A stretch of DNA of 64,000 nucleotides from Hysterangium stoloniferum. Taxonomy: Eukaryota > Basidiomycota > Agaricomycetes > Hysterangiales > Hysterangiaceae. The stretch covers positions 496,001 through 560,000 of the forward strand of contig WHVD01000013.1 of NCBI GenBank assembly GCA_015178975.1. The letters are read 5' to 3'. Position 1 is the first letter of the stretch; every line of letters starts with the position of its first letter. Positions 32,092 through 63,177 of the stretch are shown here, piece after piece. The position numbers were made by a program, and so were the translations under genes. The notes under the pieces were generated by a model that saw only the letters and a list, made by a program, of their open reading frames with translations, was not told the origin of the DNA and ran no database searches.

Positions 32092-35000
32092 ATGGACTCG
32101 GCAACTATTCTTCGACGCCGCAGGGCTCTACCAGATGTGCCGGAGGACATCACCCTCGAGGATCATCTTGTGCATTTGAATGACCCCAACTACACTTTCG
32201 ATTCCCAGGAGTGGTCAGAAACTGACTCCTTCGAGCTTGACGACAAGAATAGTGCAGTCGAATCCCACTTTTCTAGCGGGAAGACCGAAACTTACTATGA
32301 TGTTGAATCTGCGACGCAAAGCGACTATTCTCGTTCGAGCTCACGTATCGCTACTTCGCGTGCACCTGTATTGGTCGACGAGTACGTTTCAATAGTTTTC
32401 ATTTGTTACCGCTTTATCTAAACAACTATACAAAGGGAATACGATGAGTCGCCCTATCCAGAAGTCCGCGCAGCTGTTCCTACCATGGATGACCCCAACA
32501 TGCCAATAAACACTTTTCGTACATGGTTCCTTGGTCTGCTTTTATCAGCCATCATCTCGGGAGTAAACCAATTCTTCAATGCTCGTACCCCCGGCATTTT
32601 CGTGACAGCTCTCATCATTCAGCTCATTGCTTTGCCTATGGGCAAAGGAATGGAGTACATTCTGCCCACGTGGAAGTTTACCCTTAGGATTCCATTTACG
32701 TCACAAAAGTATGTGTGTAGTTTCAATCCGGGTCCATTCAACATCAAGGAACATGTGAGAAATTTCTCCAACTTTCCTATCACCCCTTCCTTATCCGACT
32801 CTTTTCTTTTTAAGGTGCTTATTACCGTCATGGCTAACGTCACTGCTGGAGGTTCCTATGCGACAGACGTTATCATGGTCCAGAGGCTCGACTACAATTA
32901 TCACAACGTGGCGTATGAACTTTTCTTGACTATCTCTACCCAGATTTTGGGCTTCTCGATAGCCGGGTTCACTCGTCGGTATTTGGTTTGGCCTGCGGCG
33001 ATGATTTGGCCAGGCGCACTTGTCAACTGTGCGCTTTTCACTACACTTCACAAAAACTACGGTCGAAAGGAGCGAAAACATATCAGTCGAGAGCGTTTCT
33101 TCCTTATCGCCTTCCTACTAAGCATAGTGTACTACTGGATTCCTGGTTATCTCTTTACTGCTCTGAGCGTCTTCAACTGGGTATGCTGGATCGCCCCCCA
33201 AAATCCCGTTGTCAACACCCTCTTTGGGACCTCCAGCGGTCTAGGCATGGGGATTCTGACCTTCGATTGGAGTATGATCACTTGGATTGGGAGCCCTCTT
33301 GTTACGCCCGTATGTTTGATTGGTTTTCTTGCTCATTCGAAATGGGCTGAAATACTACTTTTTTTTAGTGGTGGACCCAGGCAAACATTCTTGTTTCACT
33401 TGTCCTCTTCTTTTGGATTATTGCGCCTATCCTTTATTGTACGTATTTTTAACCTGCTTATCATTCAATACTTACAGCTCCCCTAGTCAAAAATGTCTTC
33501 TATTCCAAGTTTTTGCCAATGGCCGCACCTGTTGTTTTCGACAACACTGGGTTCCCCTACGATATTTCACGAATCGTGGTCGACGGTGTATTTAGCCCCG
33601 AGCTGTATCAACAATATTCCCCCCTCTATCTTCCGTGAGTAGAGACAGTATTGTTAGGTTTATCCCACAAATATTAAATCAAAATTCTCTCACTTTTAAA
33701 GGTTGGCATTTGCAATATCATATGGACTTCAATTCGCCACCTTTACGGCCACTCTGGTTCATGTATTCCGTGAGTATTGACCTTCTTGGAGTCTTCTCAT
33801 CTGACTTGCCAGTAGTCTGGTACCGCAAGGACATCATTCAGCGTTTCAAACGTTCCCTTCGCGAAGAGCGCGACGTCCACTGCCGCCTTATGTCGGTTTA
33901 TGAAGAAGTTCCAGCTTGGTGGTATACCACCTTAGGTGTTGTCGCATTCACGATTGGATTGATCGTCATCGAGACTTTCCAGACGAAGGTGCGCTTTAAG
34001 CGCTTTAAAAAATACATCATGCCTTATATGCTCTCTTTCAGCTCCCAGTCTGGGCATACGTTTTTGCCATCACTATGTCAACTCTGTATGTCATTCCAGC
34101 AGGCGTTATTCAGGCCGTTACCAACCAAACAATTGGTCTCAAGTGAGTTTCCCAGTTAAGGTATTTAAACATACTCACATCAATTCCAGTGTTATTTCCG
34201 AGGTCATTGGGGGATCCCTTCTTCCCGGAAAGCCCGTTGCTGTTATGCTCTTCAAGACTTACGGTAATGTTACCATGGCTCAAGCAATGGCTTTCACTGC
34301 CGATCTCAGTATGCTCCATTCGTCAACACATTTGTTTCTTCATTCTAACAAAACAATAGAACTCGGTCACTACATGAAAATCCCCCCGAGGACGATGTTC
34401 ATGGCACAAGTTATCGCTACCATTCTCTCGTGTTTCGTAGTTACTGGCGTACAAGATTGGCAATTCGCCAATATCGTCGACTTCTGCTCGCCCGATAACA
34501 CCCGTGCGTATCGCTGCAATTATACGTGTTGACCCAGGTTACTAAAAAATCATATGCGTCTATAGAAGGTTTCACTTGTCCTCCAGTCTCCATCTTCAGC
34601 ACGGCAGCAATCGTCTGGGGTGGCGTTGGGTAAGTTCTACTATCACGGTATTACTTCAGTTTATCGACCTTAGTCTCTAGTGCTGGGCGAATGTTTGGAC
34701 AGGGTGCACTGTGAGTTTCTTCTTTTTTAAACGACTTCTAAAAGCTAGAATCTGACTTTCATTTTAAGGTACTGGCCAAGTGAGCGATCTTTTGAGATAT
34801 AAATTTATAGAACCTGGCACTTATGTGTCGTTTTTCTCCTCTTTTTAGTGACGTACGTGGTTATAAATGCTTCGGTTGCAGTGATACTTACCTATAAACA
34901 ATCAACAGTTGGTTTTTCTTCATTGGCGCAGTCCTCCCCATTCCTTTCTATTACGCGGCGAAACGTTGGCCGACATCGGTATGCCTGACTTTATCCTGTT

Positions 35001-54190: not shown

Positions 54191-56504
54191 TTATACTTTT
54201 CGTCTTTTCCCCCCACCATCATCTACCAGGGCACTCTTGCGCTTAACACTTTCCACGAGGCCTTTGAGACTTCGACTAGTATTGTTATCGGGCTGCTGCA
54301 TTCGGTGTTCCTCAGCCTTCCCGGGTCGACGTTGACGTTTGGCACGCTCTTCGAGCAGTGCCGACATACTCTTTGTCTTCTTAAAGCTGAGAATATGTTA
54401 GTATCTTTGTTTTCAAGGTAAGGAAATATATATATATAAAGCTTACTGAGGATTTGTCGGGTCAATCGCGAATGCATGATCTTCATGTAAAGCCTTGAAC
54501 CGATCATCCTTGACATTAATCGTAAAGTCCTGCTGTATCTCACTCTCATCCGCCTCGTGATTTTTCTTGTTGCCCTTCTTACTCCGTTTCTTTGACCCGG
54601 ACTTTTCAGCCTTGATCACAGACCGCATATCGAAGTGCTTTGGCTCGTCGGAAGGAGTTGTTGACGCCAGAAGAAGTTCCAGTTCGGCCGGTGTTGATTC
54701 AACATGCCCGATCGCAACATCCTTGGATTGACTTTTAACACCGCGCTTCACGGATGATTTGGCCGTGTGGCGATCATTGTCTTCCCCTGAATCGTCTCCA
54801 AAGAATTCATCATCAGCTCCAGGAGCTTTTTGAATCGTCTCCACTTCCGCCTTCGCTGCCTTCCTTTGTTTCCTCTTCTCTTTCTGCTTCCTAAGGTATC
54901 GTTCCAATGTAGTCTCTTCCTCTCCACCACCACTGGCCGTCATATCTCTGAGCCCGGGAGTAAACGTTATCTCCATTTCTCCAGCTTTATCCACATTCTG
55001 ACCCCAGCCTTCAGGGAGCAACTCATTGTCTTCGCCTGCACCTCCCAACAATAATGCACGTAATCGGTCTCCTTTGCCACCTTCTGCATCCGATTCCTCC
55101 CCTGAACTTCCGGAGGAGGCTATGTATGCCTTAAAGTCTGATTCGTCGATCTCCTTTCTAGAAAGAGTCCGTCGAGTAACTTTAGTACGCTCAGGATCAT
55201 CATCGTCCCAGGTTAGTTTCACTTTGGAATGCCGAAGAGCCTGAGGAATGATCAGAGTAAAAATCAATGAGATGAAGACAAAACTCACATCGGTGACAAA
55301 TTCCACAGCTTTAAATGATCCAGCTACATCTTGAGTAGCTTCGTCACTTGGAAATAACAATTAGCTTTAGCATATACTAGATAGTAGTTCTAGACAGACT
55401 CACGTAAAGTCATCCGTAAATTCCATATCATTTGGTACAAAACTCAAATCAAACACATTGGCAGATCGTTCTAATTCGGTGCCGTCCAGCTCCGAATAGA
55501 CGTGGGCCGCTGCACTTACAGTATCGCATGATACGATGGCATAATAATAGCTAAAACGAAAATTATTGGCATGACTGGAATGAATGGGAAGTAGCCACAC
55601 CGAAGTCGTTCTAATTGATAGTTCCGTAAGGCCGCTTCATCATACTCATTACCATCGTCCTCTTCAATGAGAGGCCCATCCACATCATTTACATCCCGTT
55701 TTTTGAAAATTTCCTTAGGAGGACCTTCTTTCTTTTCCTTTTCCAATCTTGTTTTTCCGAATTCACTGGGATAAATCCGGACATTGAGAACTTTGCCCTT
55801 ATGGACCACAGGACGTGTCTTGTCGCTTTCCCGTGTGTTGGGCGGTGAAACGACAGAAGAGAATATTTTAAATAGATGTTGCGCCCGAACATGGTCCCAA
55901 TCCAGGTTAACGATCGCAATACGGTTGGTTTGTTCTCCGTTAGGTGATGGGGATGTTTCGTTGGCTTTAGCTGCATTTACTTCGGCTATTGCGTCTAGCT
56001 CTGCAAATTGTGACTCGTCCAGGTCAATCTCGGGCTCATCTGGGAGGACTTGGATCGGTCTGTGTATATTTCTCCCGAGGATGACTTCGCCGTCATCGGA
56101 TTCATCAGAAATCTCAGCCTCTTCATCGGAGCTCTCTAAAAGGACCTCGCCTCGAGCCAAGTCGGGTATGGACGGTTCAGCTGCTGCATTATCGCCTTCT
56201 TCATCTTCTTCAAGACGATAGAACCGCTTGAGATTATCACTATCATGAGCGACAGAAATTTTCCTGCCATATTTGTCAATTTTTGTTTCTAGTTAATAAA
56301 GAAAGCGAATTCATTAGTCGAAAACCACGATACAAATATTTTTGCAATACCTTTTGCTCTCCTCTTCCCATTCCCACCTTTAGTCTTTTCACCTTCATCA
56401 AAAATCGACTTAAAACGATCATCTATCACGACTTTTTTATTCTTTTTCCGAGGCTTCCGAAAACGAGGGTCAGTTTTCAAACGAGCGAAACGAGGATCTG
56501 ACAT
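54191..56504 (-). CDS. ESF1: ESF1, nucleolar pre-rRNA processing factor
   Basis: Nucleolar protein needed for 18S rRNA maturation in the small-subunit processome. Start MSDPRFARLKTDPRFRKP, then KKVVIDDRFKSIFDEGE and KIDKYGRKIS. Acidic stretches follow. An RRM-like core begins NRIAIVNLDWDHVRAQHLFK, with VLNVRIYPSEFGKTRLEKEK, YYYAIVSCDTVSAAAHVYSE and FVPNDMEFTDDFTDEATQDV. Acidic and lysine-rich regions lead to the C-terminal NUC153 box KDDRFKALHEDHAFAIDPTN, then PQFKKTKSM. The last exon is basic and ends GGGKRRKV. Six introns. All ESF1 landmarks are in order and the gene looks intact. Confidence 0.92.
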
Positions 56505-57403: not shown

Positions 57404-58720
57404 ATGTTGTCCAACTCCGTTCTTTTGCTTGTCATGGCTGGTTTTTTCTCCAAGTCCATGGGTGCGCCTATGCTTGCCCAGGTGAGCAGTCTAAGAACAT
57501 CCTGCGAACGTACGCACAACTCACAATAATATCGGAACAAGAACTCGGTGTCTCAGCAGACCCGTGATTTACCTGTCGATGTCATTCAAGCGTTTGTTCG
57601 AGACTTCATTCCTGACACTATCGCAACATCCGCTCCTAAGTATATACCATATTTTATATATGATTCCTCTACAGCGACTTACCTGTACTTTGAATTTGGT
57701 AGTGGGGGAACTCCGCAACCATACAAGCGTGCTGTAATCCCCGACACCATTCCAACGGTCGCGAAAAAGTAAGAACTCGATTTGTTTCTTACCAGCTACA
57801 TGCTTAAATATCTTTACAGTGGTCAAGATCCCGTGCCATACAAGCGTGCTGTAATCCCCGACACCATTCCAACGGTCGCAAAAAAGTAAGAACTCGATTC
57901 ATTTCTCACCAGCCACATGCTTAAATATTTTTACAGTGGTCAAGATCCCGTGCCATACAAGCGTGCTATAATCCCCGACACCATTCCAACGGTCGCGAAA
58001 AAGTAAGAACTCAATTCTTTTCTCACCAGCTACATGCTTAAATATTTTTATAGTGGCCAAGATCCCGTGCCGTATAAGCGCGCTGTAATCCCTGACACCA
58101 TTCCGACAGTTTCGAGAAAGTACGAACTTGACTCGTTTCTCACCAGCTGCATACTTAAAAATCTTTATAGTGGCCAAGATCCCGTGCCGTACAAGCGTGC
58201 TGTAATTCCTGACATCATTCCGACAGTTTCAAAGAAGTAAGAACTTGACTCGTTTTTCATCAGCTACATGCTTAAATAACTTTACAGTGGCCAGGATCCC
58301 GTTCCATACAAGCGTGATGTAATCCCCGACACCATTCCAACGGTCGCGAAAAAGTAAGAACTCGATTCATTTCTCACCAGCTACATGCTTAAATATGTTT
58401 ACAGTGGTCAAGATCCTGTGCCATACAAACGTGCTTCAATCCCGGACACCATCCCAACAGTTGCGAAGAAGTAAGCGTCCATGCGGTCTTATAGGGTGCA
58501 TATTTAAATTGTCTCTACAGTGGTCAAGACCCTGTGCCATACAAACGCGGATTTTCATTCACTGAGGCAGTTATGGCACCGTGAGGGCTAATCTAGTGTC
58601 TTAAATTTTCAACCTGCTCACATGTTTACTTTGCAGACGAGGCATAGTCGTTCCATATGACAACGTATGTGTGTTTTGTTTATCCTTTGCATGTCACTAA
58701 TTATTCTGCATATGCAGTAA
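57404..58720 (+). CDS. Secreted kexin-type repeat peptide precursor (KEP/RiPP-like)
   Basis: Predicted secreted precursor of about 237 residues cut into many copies of one peptide. Exon 1 (57404-57481) encodes a signal peptide, MLSNSVLLLVMAGFFSKSMG and APMLAQ. Exon 2 gives the leader QTRDLPVDVIQAFVR. Eight cores of 20 residues follow, each ending in Lys-Arg, the Kex2 site. The consensus core is AVIPDTIPTVAK plus NGQDPVPY. Core 1 is divergent (DFIPDTIATSAP plus NGGTPQPY); later ones differ at one to three positions. Exons 57703-58470 are seven 66-nt units, then 60 nt and 28 nt exons. The last encode a degenerate ninth unit (GFSFTEAVMAPR, GIVVPYDN) without KR, and TAA opens the next exon (58718). 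If the intron at 58581 is kept, a stop follows at 58582. There is no Cys and no CaaX box, so it is not a basidiomycete lipopeptide pheromone. Known relatives in plan are Ustilago Rep1, yeast alpha-factor precursors and dikaritin RiPP precursors. Product role unknown. Confidence 0.82.
57703..58580 (+). repeat. 117-bp exon-plus-intron tandem array, eight units
   Basis: Unit exons start at 57703, 57820, 57937, 58054, 58171, 58288, 58405 and 58521. Spacing is 117 bp six times and then 116. Each unit is a 66-nt exon (the last is 60) and a 51-nt intron beginning GTAAGAACTC (or close) and ending TTTACAG or TTTATAG. Intron sequence is about as conserved as the exons. Confidence 0.95.
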
Positions 58721-60979: not shown

Positions 60980-63177
60980 ATGGCTGTCGTAGTATATATC
61001 TTGACCATAGGCATTTCTCTTGTGCCACTCCTCCTGCTTTATGTAGCATACATTGTTTTGATCGAACCGCGTCTCTCTCCGATCCATTATCTTCCCGGTC
61101 CTCCAGTTTCGAGATGGCTTACCTCCCATCTAAGTCTAATCCTAGACCCAAGCAAATCTGCTCGTGAAGTCGAGGAATTGGTGCAAAAGTATGGGCGTAC
61201 ATTCCGGATAGTAGGCATGGGACCTGTAAGTTCGCGTCGTAGACTTGCCCATACCATGCTCTAATACGCTGTTCACTACATAGCACGATGAGCGACTAAT
61301 GACTATCGATCCTACCGCGATATCGCACGTGCTGGGTAGATCCATATATGAAAAACCGTGGCAATCGAGGAGGTTGATTAGTCGACTTATCGGCGAGGGG
61401 CTGCTTTCGTCGGAAGGGAACATGCACAAACGACAGGCAGGTTTTTCTGAACCGGGAATATTGTTAGACGTAAAAGCTTACCGCACTTTTTGTCAGCGCA
61501 AAGTATCAAACCCGGCATTCTCACAGCAGAATCTGCGTGAGCTACTGCCCATATTTTTTCAGAAGGCTGAGGAGGTCCGACATTTTGTGCCACTTCCGTC
61601 GTTTCACCGTTTACTTCTCTGTCTCTTCAGCTGCGATGTACTTGGTTGAAACTTGCGGACCCGAAAGGCACAAAAATCGACGTATGTCACTGGTTGGGAC
61701 GCGCCACTTTCGACATCATCGGACTCGCTGGTGTGCAATGCAACACTTCAGGACCATTTATTTGTTGAATACTAATAAGGCGGAACAGGATTTGATTACG
61801 CGTTCGATGCCATCCAAGACGAAACAAATGAGATTTACTTGGCCTATCGGGACATGTTCGATGCAGCTCTTAATCGAGGACAAGACTGGACTACGGTCGC
61901 TGGCGTCTACTTCCCTATTTTCAACAAGTATTGGGTTCGTGTTCTTTGTCCACCAAAGGTTGTTGTCTTGAAGTAGATAAACCAGCGTAGCGAGAAAAAC
62001 TGCGTCATTGAGAACAGCCTGGCGGTCATTCAACGTGCTGGCACCCGGTTGGTACAGGAGAAAAAAAAGGCTCTCGCGGAAGGTGCTAAGACGAAGGATC
62101 TTCTCGGTCTCATGCGTAGGTTCTTCATATATTTACATATTCAAGTGCTCAATTTCCACTAGTGATGTCCAATCTTTCCACCGAGATTCCGATTGACCAA
62201 CGAATATCAGATGAAGATATATTTAACCAGATATCCACGTTCTTGTTCGCTGGTTCAGATACCTCGTCCTTGTCACTGACCTGGACACTCTATCTTTTGG
62301 CAAAGCATCCTGAGGTACAGTCCAAGGTTAGAGAAGAGCTAAAATCCGTCCGGGCTAAGCTTTCCGAGTCGTGGATCGTGGTGGATGATGATCGCTGCGG
62401 GCCAGACAATCATTTGAAGCTTTACAGAGCTTTAGATGCGCTGCCAGTGCTTGATGGCGTCGTACGAGAATCTCTGCGCTTTATTCCACCTATCCATTCA
62501 TCTCTTCGGGTGGCGACACGGGATGACGAAATTCCACTCTCAGAGCCTGTTACTATGAGGGATGGGTCGAAGAAATGGAGTATCGGCATTAGGAAGGGGC
62601 AGTTTGTTCATGTGGCCATGAGAGATTTTAATCTTGATAGAGGCGCATGGGGAGAAACGGGATGGGAATTTGAGTGAGTTGTGACTGCCTTTTCTGGTAT
62701 TTATACGGTTATTAATATAGGAGGATAGCCCGAATCGATGGTCGAGTTTGTCAGAGAAAGCCAAGCAGCAGCCTGGCTTATATCCGAATATCATGACATT
62801 TTCCGCTGGTCCCAGGGTATGTAGAACACCACTGTGTTTTGCGTTTTGCATTTCATGGCTTCAAGTGTTTACTAACTTGTTTTTAGGGATGCATTGGAAT
62901 GACGTTCGCTCTTATGGAGTATATCTCGCTCTTCGTTCACATGGTCATTATGCAGCGCTTACCTGTTTGCAGGATAAAAATTATTCTCTACACATTAATT
63001 ACTTCGTTCGTATTCTCGGATCCAGAAAATATTATTCAAGTGAATGCGTACGCACTTTTATTAAATGCTTGCTTTGCGTGCTTCCTGACCATTGACGTTA
63101 GGGTGCTCATTAGGCCATTTGTACGTGGAAAGTCGAACAAGGGTAGCCAATGTCCTATCACCGTTACACCCTGCTAA
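60980..63177 (+). CDS. Cytochrome P450 monooxygenase
   Basis: ER-anchored heme monooxygenase, about 500 residues. Start ATG at 60980: MAVVVYILTIGISLVPLLLL is the membrane anchor, then HYLPGPPVSRWLTSHLSL. Further: EELVQKYGRTFRIVGMGP, HVLGRSIYEKPWQSRRLISR, RKVSNPAFSQQNLREL with the C-helix, WLKLADPKGTKIDVCHWLGR and FDYAFDAIQDETNEIYLAYR. The I-helix FLFAGSDTSSLSLTW carries the oxygen-activation AGSDT. The ExxR motif is in VVRESLRFIPP. The heme loop FSAGPRGCIGM, split by an intron at 62818-62886, holds the Cys ligand. A C-terminal exon has FVRGKSNKGSQCPITVTPC. About ten introns, all conserved motifs present. The family number cannot be set by eye; it resembles agaricomycete clans near CYP5144/CYP5150. 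Substrate unknown. Confidence 0.9.

Follow-up and report, generated by a model that had tools for sequence, protein, structure and literature searches.

A predicted KR-bounded multi-copy peptide precursor gene of Hysterangium stoloniferum and its probable relationship to the mushroom KEP 497993

Introduction

KEX2-processed repeat proteins (KEPs) constitute a class that has already been surveyed across fungi, as described in PMC9769878 and PMC7329392. According to the description in the former, its screen selected proteins of less than 800 aa with at least three similar fragments between dibasic sites. Among the members described there, KEP 497993 of Coprinopsis cinerea yields pyro-QIPAELPTKSINGNIEPY and its -K form, which were detected by mass spectrometry in young caps (Vogt et al., 2022; PMC9769878), and also pyro-QVPVDEPA, which was detected in the medium and mycelium. 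The detected peptides end in ...PY and ...PYK and are linear except for the pyroglutamate, at least 13 homologs have been reported, and C. cinerea was described to have three KEX2 genes (PMC9769878). Six C. cinerea kep knockouts, including that of 497993, showed no visible phenotype under the conditions tested, and synthetic peptides showed no antibacterial activity (PMC9769878). cDNA served to obtain the intron-less KEP 497993 sequence (PMC9769878), suggesting that introns are present in that gene as well.

In the survey of Umemura (2020), the most widespread KEP type was G-1/P-2 (#7), with 64 KEPs spread over 62 strains of 49 genera, among them Coprinopsis, Pleurotus, Hypsizygus, and Panaeolus (PMC7329392). 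This Tyr-rich type was present at approximately one KEP per strain, and DUF3328 was recorded nearby in 0 of the 64 cases (PMC7329392).

Here we analyzed a window of 64,000 nucleotides (the whole stretch of DNA under study), in which a sequence-only reading had pointed to a gene for a multi-copy, KR-bounded precursor at 57404-58720. The observation as a whole was confirmed, and the gene was compared with these and other described systems.

Results and Discussion

Predicted structure of the precursor gene

As summarized in Table 1, the precursor gene (57404-58720, forward strand) was modeled with 12 exons encoding a protein of 236 residues (long spliced model), in which a hydrophobic N-terminus and a short leader are followed by one diverged core, seven near-identical 20-residue cores, and a 20-residue tail. 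The ATG start codon lies at window position 57404, and the spliced frame is open throughout. In the splicing pattern predicted from the sequence, all 11 introns have GT-AG borders, nine being in phase 2 and two in phase 0. Each of the seven core exons is exactly 66 nt long, the introns behind them measure 51 nt in six cases and 50 nt in one, and both the splice sites and the exon length are conserved in all seven core units. At its default score, TRF reported one array in the 64 kb window, with a period of 117, 6.5 copies, and 87% matches.

The 3' end depends on two introns. Position 58720, the final base of the TAA codon, is reached only with introns 58581-58636 and 58665-58717 spliced. With both unspliced, the frame stops at 58584 and the product has 227 aa (the 227-aa form); with only intron 58581-58636 spliced, the precursor tail would end in ...PYDNVCVFCLSFACH. 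The exon structure and end point claimed in the sequence-only reading were reproduced by the 12-exon model, whose TAA ends at 58720.

Table 1. Predicted exons of the precursor gene and the tandem array (window positions)
Feature	Positions	Strand	Content
Exon 1	57404..57481	+	Start codon and hydrophobic, signal-like N-terminus (MLSNSVLLLVMAGFFSKSMGAPMLAQ), judged by hydropathy only
Exon 2	57560..57639	+	Leader, then the first half of core 1 (diverged); intron 2 (phase 2) falls at the codon where the other units have theirs
Exon 3 (66 nt)	57703..57768	+	End of core 1, KR, start of core 2
Exon 4 (66 nt)	57820..57885	+	End of core 2, KR, start of core 3
Exon 5 (66 nt)	57937..58002	+	End of core 3, KR, start of core 4
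Exon 6 (66 nt)	58054..58119	+	End of core 4, KR, start of core 5
Exon 7 (66 nt)	58171..58236	+	End of core 5, KR, start of core 6
Exon 8 (66 nt)	58288..58353	+	End of core 6, KR, start of core 7
Exon 9 (66 nt)	58405..58470	+	End of core 7, KR, start of core 8
Exon 10	58521..58580	+	End of core 8, last KR, start of tail; with the next intron unspliced, TGA at 58582-58584
Exon 11	58637..58664	+	Remainder of tail (RGIVVPYDN); predicted from canonical splice signals and a phase-2 position matching the core introns
Exon 12	58718..58720	+	TAA stop directly behind intron 11; the exon predicted with the least certainty
Tandem array of 117-nt exon + intron modules	57719..58475	+	TRF

Cores, putative cleavage sites, and tail

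The precursor contains eight KR sites; RR, KK, and RK do not occur (counted in the 227-aa form). The commonest core, AVIPDTIPTVAKNGQDPVPY, with a computed mass of 2094.0997 Da, occurs in two identical copies, accompanied by five close variants and one diverged copy, so that the seven consensus cores comprise six distinct peptides. Further computed peptide masses were 2108.1154, 2138.1008, 2122.131, 2138.0895, and 2082.0633 Da. All seven are bounded by KR on both sides. Of the eight KR-followed cores claimed previously, the KR sites and the seven consensus cores stand, while the first core, DFIPDTIATSAPNGGTPQPY, is diverged and has a single Arg in front of it in place of KR. The N-terminus shows a 9-residue hydropathy peak with a mean of 2.88 at residues 6-14.

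In the long model, the tail reads GFSFTEAVMAPRGIVVPYDN (20 residues). Its intron (within 58581-58664) is in phase 2 and lies seven residues from the Tyr, as in the cores, and DN stands where the cores have KR. By sequence, the similarity of the tail to three cores was not significant, the scores being reached by 3993, 1102, and 2552 of 20,000 shuffles. The intron phase and spacing, rather than the sequence score, thus suggest that the tail may be a vestigial ninth unit.

Similarity to the C. cinerea peptide

The window core scored 34 against the C. cinerea peptide QIPAELPTKSINGNIEPYK (BLOSUM62, local), and 130 of 100,000 shuffles reached that score; for the diverged core 1, the score was 33 (122 of 100,000). 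As a background, 13,817 21-mers were taken from open frames in the window and at three other loci; three of them reached 34, the best scoring 36. In the alignment, I-P, P-T, N-G, and P-Y-K coincide in order with one gap, and 8 of the 22 columns are identical in all eight aligned rows. The motif I-P...P-T...N-G...P-Y-K, which was defined after looking, is present in the cores, core 1 being without the Pro of P-T. Twelve other peptides described in PMC9769878 scored 14 or less, but each of these is just 6-12 residues long. Three joined copies of the C. cinerea peptide, used as a genome query, gave no match; since this query missed the precursor gene itself, its null result shows nothing.

The score match is thus modest (about 1e-3 by shuffle), was found after looking, and is suggestive; the shared architecture and the shared peptide end give it added weight. 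On these grounds, the precursor is likely to be a member of the agaricomycete KEP 497993 family. The sequence-only reading had not recognized the core and had considered a new signalling, surface-active, or RiPP family possible. A core lacking known relatives, or a new RiPP family, is not supported, as the KEP class is described and the core resembles an agaricomycete peptide detected by mass spectrometry. Fragments of the core sequence did not occur in the main texts of the papers searched, so the exact peptide may be unreported even though the class is known and the family is probably known.

Proposed processing and role

All these features are very probably explained by a KEP that yields linear secreted peptides and is a probable relative of KEP 497993. 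Set against the KEP screen, the precursor has eight KR sites delimiting seven near-identical cores and one diverged core in 236 aa. As for the processing enzyme, the genome holds one match to the kexin-type P_proprotein domain, on contig C29, which covers positions 1-56 of 86 and scores 63.2 bits (cut-off, 21).

In the proposed pathway, the precursor would enter the ER via the predicted N-terminal signal peptide, a Golgi kexin would cut after each Lys-Arg, and a Kex1-type carboxypeptidase would trim the basic residues from the released peptides. The products would be linear, acidic 20-residue peptides ending in Tyr. Release of core 1 would require a cut at the single Arg, which was reported as possible for KEPs expressed in yeast (PMC9769878); C. 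cinerea KEPs have been expressed in Pichia pastoris. The secreted, Kex2-type multi-copy precursor proposed in the sequence-only reading is supported, and its suggestion of Kex1-like trimming to a C-terminal Tyr agrees with the KEP 497993 peptides described as ending in ...PY and ...PYK (PMC9769878). An extracellular role is most likely for the peptides, either as a signal or as a factor in dealings with other organisms, rather than one as a cyclised toxin or a mating pheromone.

A bolder reading takes the core I-P-x(2)-(I/L)-P-T-x(3)-N-G-x(3,4)-P-Y for a peptide hormone, deeply conserved among mushrooms and served by a dedicated receptor, which is made here from a dose-adjustable exon-intron array. 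Because the repeat unit is a whole exon plus intron, exon skipping or a change in copy number would alter the dose and leave the frame intact. We regard this extension as doubtful.

Genome-wide searches and alternative products

The genome assembly searched comprised 554 contigs with a total of 111,116,353 bases. When the gene and its 3' flank were used as DNA queries, they matched solely the locus itself, and a leader plus core 1 query likewise matched solely the precursor gene. A DNA pattern for G-x-x-P-x-P-Y-K-R gave eight forward matches in the 111 Mb genome, all eight in the precursor gene, and no reverse match; the backwards pattern, as a control, gave zero forward and two reverse matches. 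The precursor gene is thus single-copy in the genome.

A three-core query returned nine matches, seven of them in the precursor gene and two weak ones elsewhere, on C194 (E 0.84) and C535 (E 3.66). As these two are antisense readings of WD40-type repeats, both paralog candidates were rejected as chance; the C535 motif was recognized by eye, its match being antisense to a long frame, and C194 likewise. Both loci were seen to be highly regular WD40-type arrays that are open on the antisense strand too, and their basic antisense reading 'RRIPE(T/P)DG...' mimics KR-repeat proteins in searches. No Pfam family reached the cut-off with the precursor protein (best E 0.39), and the PDB sequence search with the precursor gave a single meaningless match (E 2). 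The prokaryote contig scan, for which a negative was expected, confirmed none of the 37 stretches matched by its pattern.

The same precursor plan and the one Tyr per core would also suit a dikaritin-type RiPP, in which Kex2-excised cores are cyclised at Tyr by UstYa-type oxidases encoded nearby, and 17 UstYa/DUF3328 matches do exist in the genome. However, none of the 17 lies on the contig of the precursor (C35, 1.27 Mb), and neither UstYa nor tyrosinase was found by Pfam among the 20 scanned window frames (of 87 open frames of at least 90 aa) and one further piece. The similar C. cinerea peptides, moreover, were described as linear apart from the pyroglutamate (PMC9769878). With no UstYa match on the contig, the ustiloxin-type comparison made in the sequence-only reading fails, and the precursor is probably not a dikaritin-type RiPP; cyclisation by a UstYa enzyme acting in trans from elsewhere in the genome is conceivable, and the dikaritin reading as a whole is improbable. 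The UstYa/DUF3328 matches themselves, on C536, C549, C279, C110, C476, and C246, are in several cases clustered and in some near-duplicate by score (C549, C476). Being close together, they suggest that dikaritin-type clusters may exist elsewhere in the genome.

A Rep1-like role was also considered, in which the peptides would assemble on the hyphal wall as a surface-active or structural secreted protein. Rep1, too, is a Kex2-cut repeat precursor in a basidiomycete (PMC6339444, as described there), but the comparison, which had likewise been drawn previously, fails on length, the cores having 20 residues here against 37 for the Rep1 peptides (PMC6339444). In addition, the core is acidic and mildly hydrophilic (GRAVY -0.11, pI 4.2), with four Pro, and is no obvious amyloid former. 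A Rep1-like product is thus distinctly improbable.

Some basidiomycete KEPs give alpha-pheromone-like signals that are further trimmed by a Ste13-type dipeptidyl aminopeptidase, and agaricomycetes were described to have such KEPs (PMC9769878, PMC6339444). The seven consensus cores, however, start after KR with A-V, A-I, D-V, or A-S, not with X-A or X-P, and have neither spacer dipeptides nor Trp, which makes such a signal highly improbable here. A basidiomycete lipopeptide mating pheromone was rejected, since the three possible 3' ends read ...VMAP, ...PYDN, and ...FACH and none of them is a CaaX, bearing out what the sequence-only reading had said of the C-terminus. The mating pheromone profile PF08015 gave no match in the genome, and its controls were likewise silent, so that this search carries no weight.

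As for the neighborhood, an ESF1-type gene lies upstream on the opposite strand (Pfam RRM_ESF1 at 55519-56292 and NUC153 at 54446-55360), and a mitochondrial carrier lies downstream. Past the carrier gene, approximately 3.4 kb downstream, a cytochrome P450 frame was observed at 62120-62674, and an oligopeptide transporter (OPT) frame at 32422-33483, approximately 24 kb from the peptide gene; no link of either to the peptide was shown. Separately, the fungal-type protein kinase PF17667 gave 116 matches in the genome (107 of 218 candidates scored). Several copies are identical by score (e.g., C196, C235, C442, and C527), pointing to a recent expansion. Expansion of PF17667 is typical of mushroom-forming fungi.

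Selection on the coding frame and probable amplification of the module

The seven cores differ by 25 distinct minor states. In the coding frame, 18 of these are synonymous and 7 non-synonymous; in each of the two other frames, the same states split into 3 synonymous and 22 non-synonymous. The synonymous excess in the coding frame was significant (binomial p 1.2e-6, with states common to related copies not fully independent), and the pN/pS of the cores was 0.096, indicating purifying selection. Since the variation is mostly synonymous in this one frame, selection on the peptide has maintained the spliced frame. The alternative that the locus is no gene, just a minisatellite whose frame is open by chance, is practically negligible, given that the DNA tandem array of period 117 and 87% matches does exist but the synonymous bias is confined to one frame and the 66-nt length and splice sites are kept in all seven core units.

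Core 1 is interrupted by an intron at a codon and phase homologous to those of the other units. The ancestral unit therefore probably already had this intron, and exon and intron were probably amplified together as one module. The one-core-per-exon layout clearly illustrates such joint amplification. Literature searches on kexin precursors with one exon per repeat yielded, as judged from the hit lists, nothing pertinent beyond two KEP papers. In the 227-aa form, if any single 66-nt exon of the seven is skipped, the frame stays open and seven KR sites are left, and thus the array tolerates exon skipping; its use by the fungus is a possibility. Retention of introns 3-5 or 7-9 would stop translation directly behind the donor, and the frame stays open with intron 2 or intron 6 retained (227-aa form).

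The 51-nt introns (within 57731-58432) were variable in 16 of 51 columns, with a mean pairwise difference of 0.13, as compared with 14 of 22 columns and 0.30 for the third codon positions in exons of the same modules. This lower variation of the introns (Fisher p 0.019, with columns not independent) could stem from splicing constraint or unequal gene conversion.

Comparison with known systems

The dikaritins (ustiloxin, phomopsin) share with the window gene the KR-bounded repeats and, as predicted here from the hydrophobic N-terminus, a signal peptide, whereas the cores are longer here and the contig holds no UstYa match. Rep1 of Ustilago maydis was described to give 37-residue wall peptides (PMC6339444), in contrast to the 20-residue acidic peptides predicted here. 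With the G-1/P-2 type as described in PMC7329392, the window gene has in common that it is single-copy, has no UstYa match on its contig, and contains Tyr. We infer that this type could be the same family as KEP 497993 or the window gene.

KEP 497993 is among the closest of the described systems. Both it and the window gene encode KR-type repeat precursors whose peptides, of 18-19 residues as detected in C. cinerea and of 20 as predicted here, carry I-P, (L/I)-P-T, N-G, and P-Y-K in order; the C. cinerea peptide ends in Tyr or Tyr-Lys, as would that of the window gene. They differ in that the KEP 497993 core is two residues shorter and starts with Gln (pyroglutamate), whereas the window cores start with Ala (consensus Ala-Val) or Asp; the genome searched here, moreover, has one kexin P-domain match against three KEX2 genes in C. 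cinerea. As the window cores have no N-terminal Gln, the pyroglutamate cap cannot be essential if the two peptides are homologous. If the link to KEP 497993 holds, it would provide a defined 20-mer for peptidomics and receptor searches of a widespread, unexplained mushroom peptide, and the two sequences would show which residues are kept (I-P, N-G, P-Y) and which are free.
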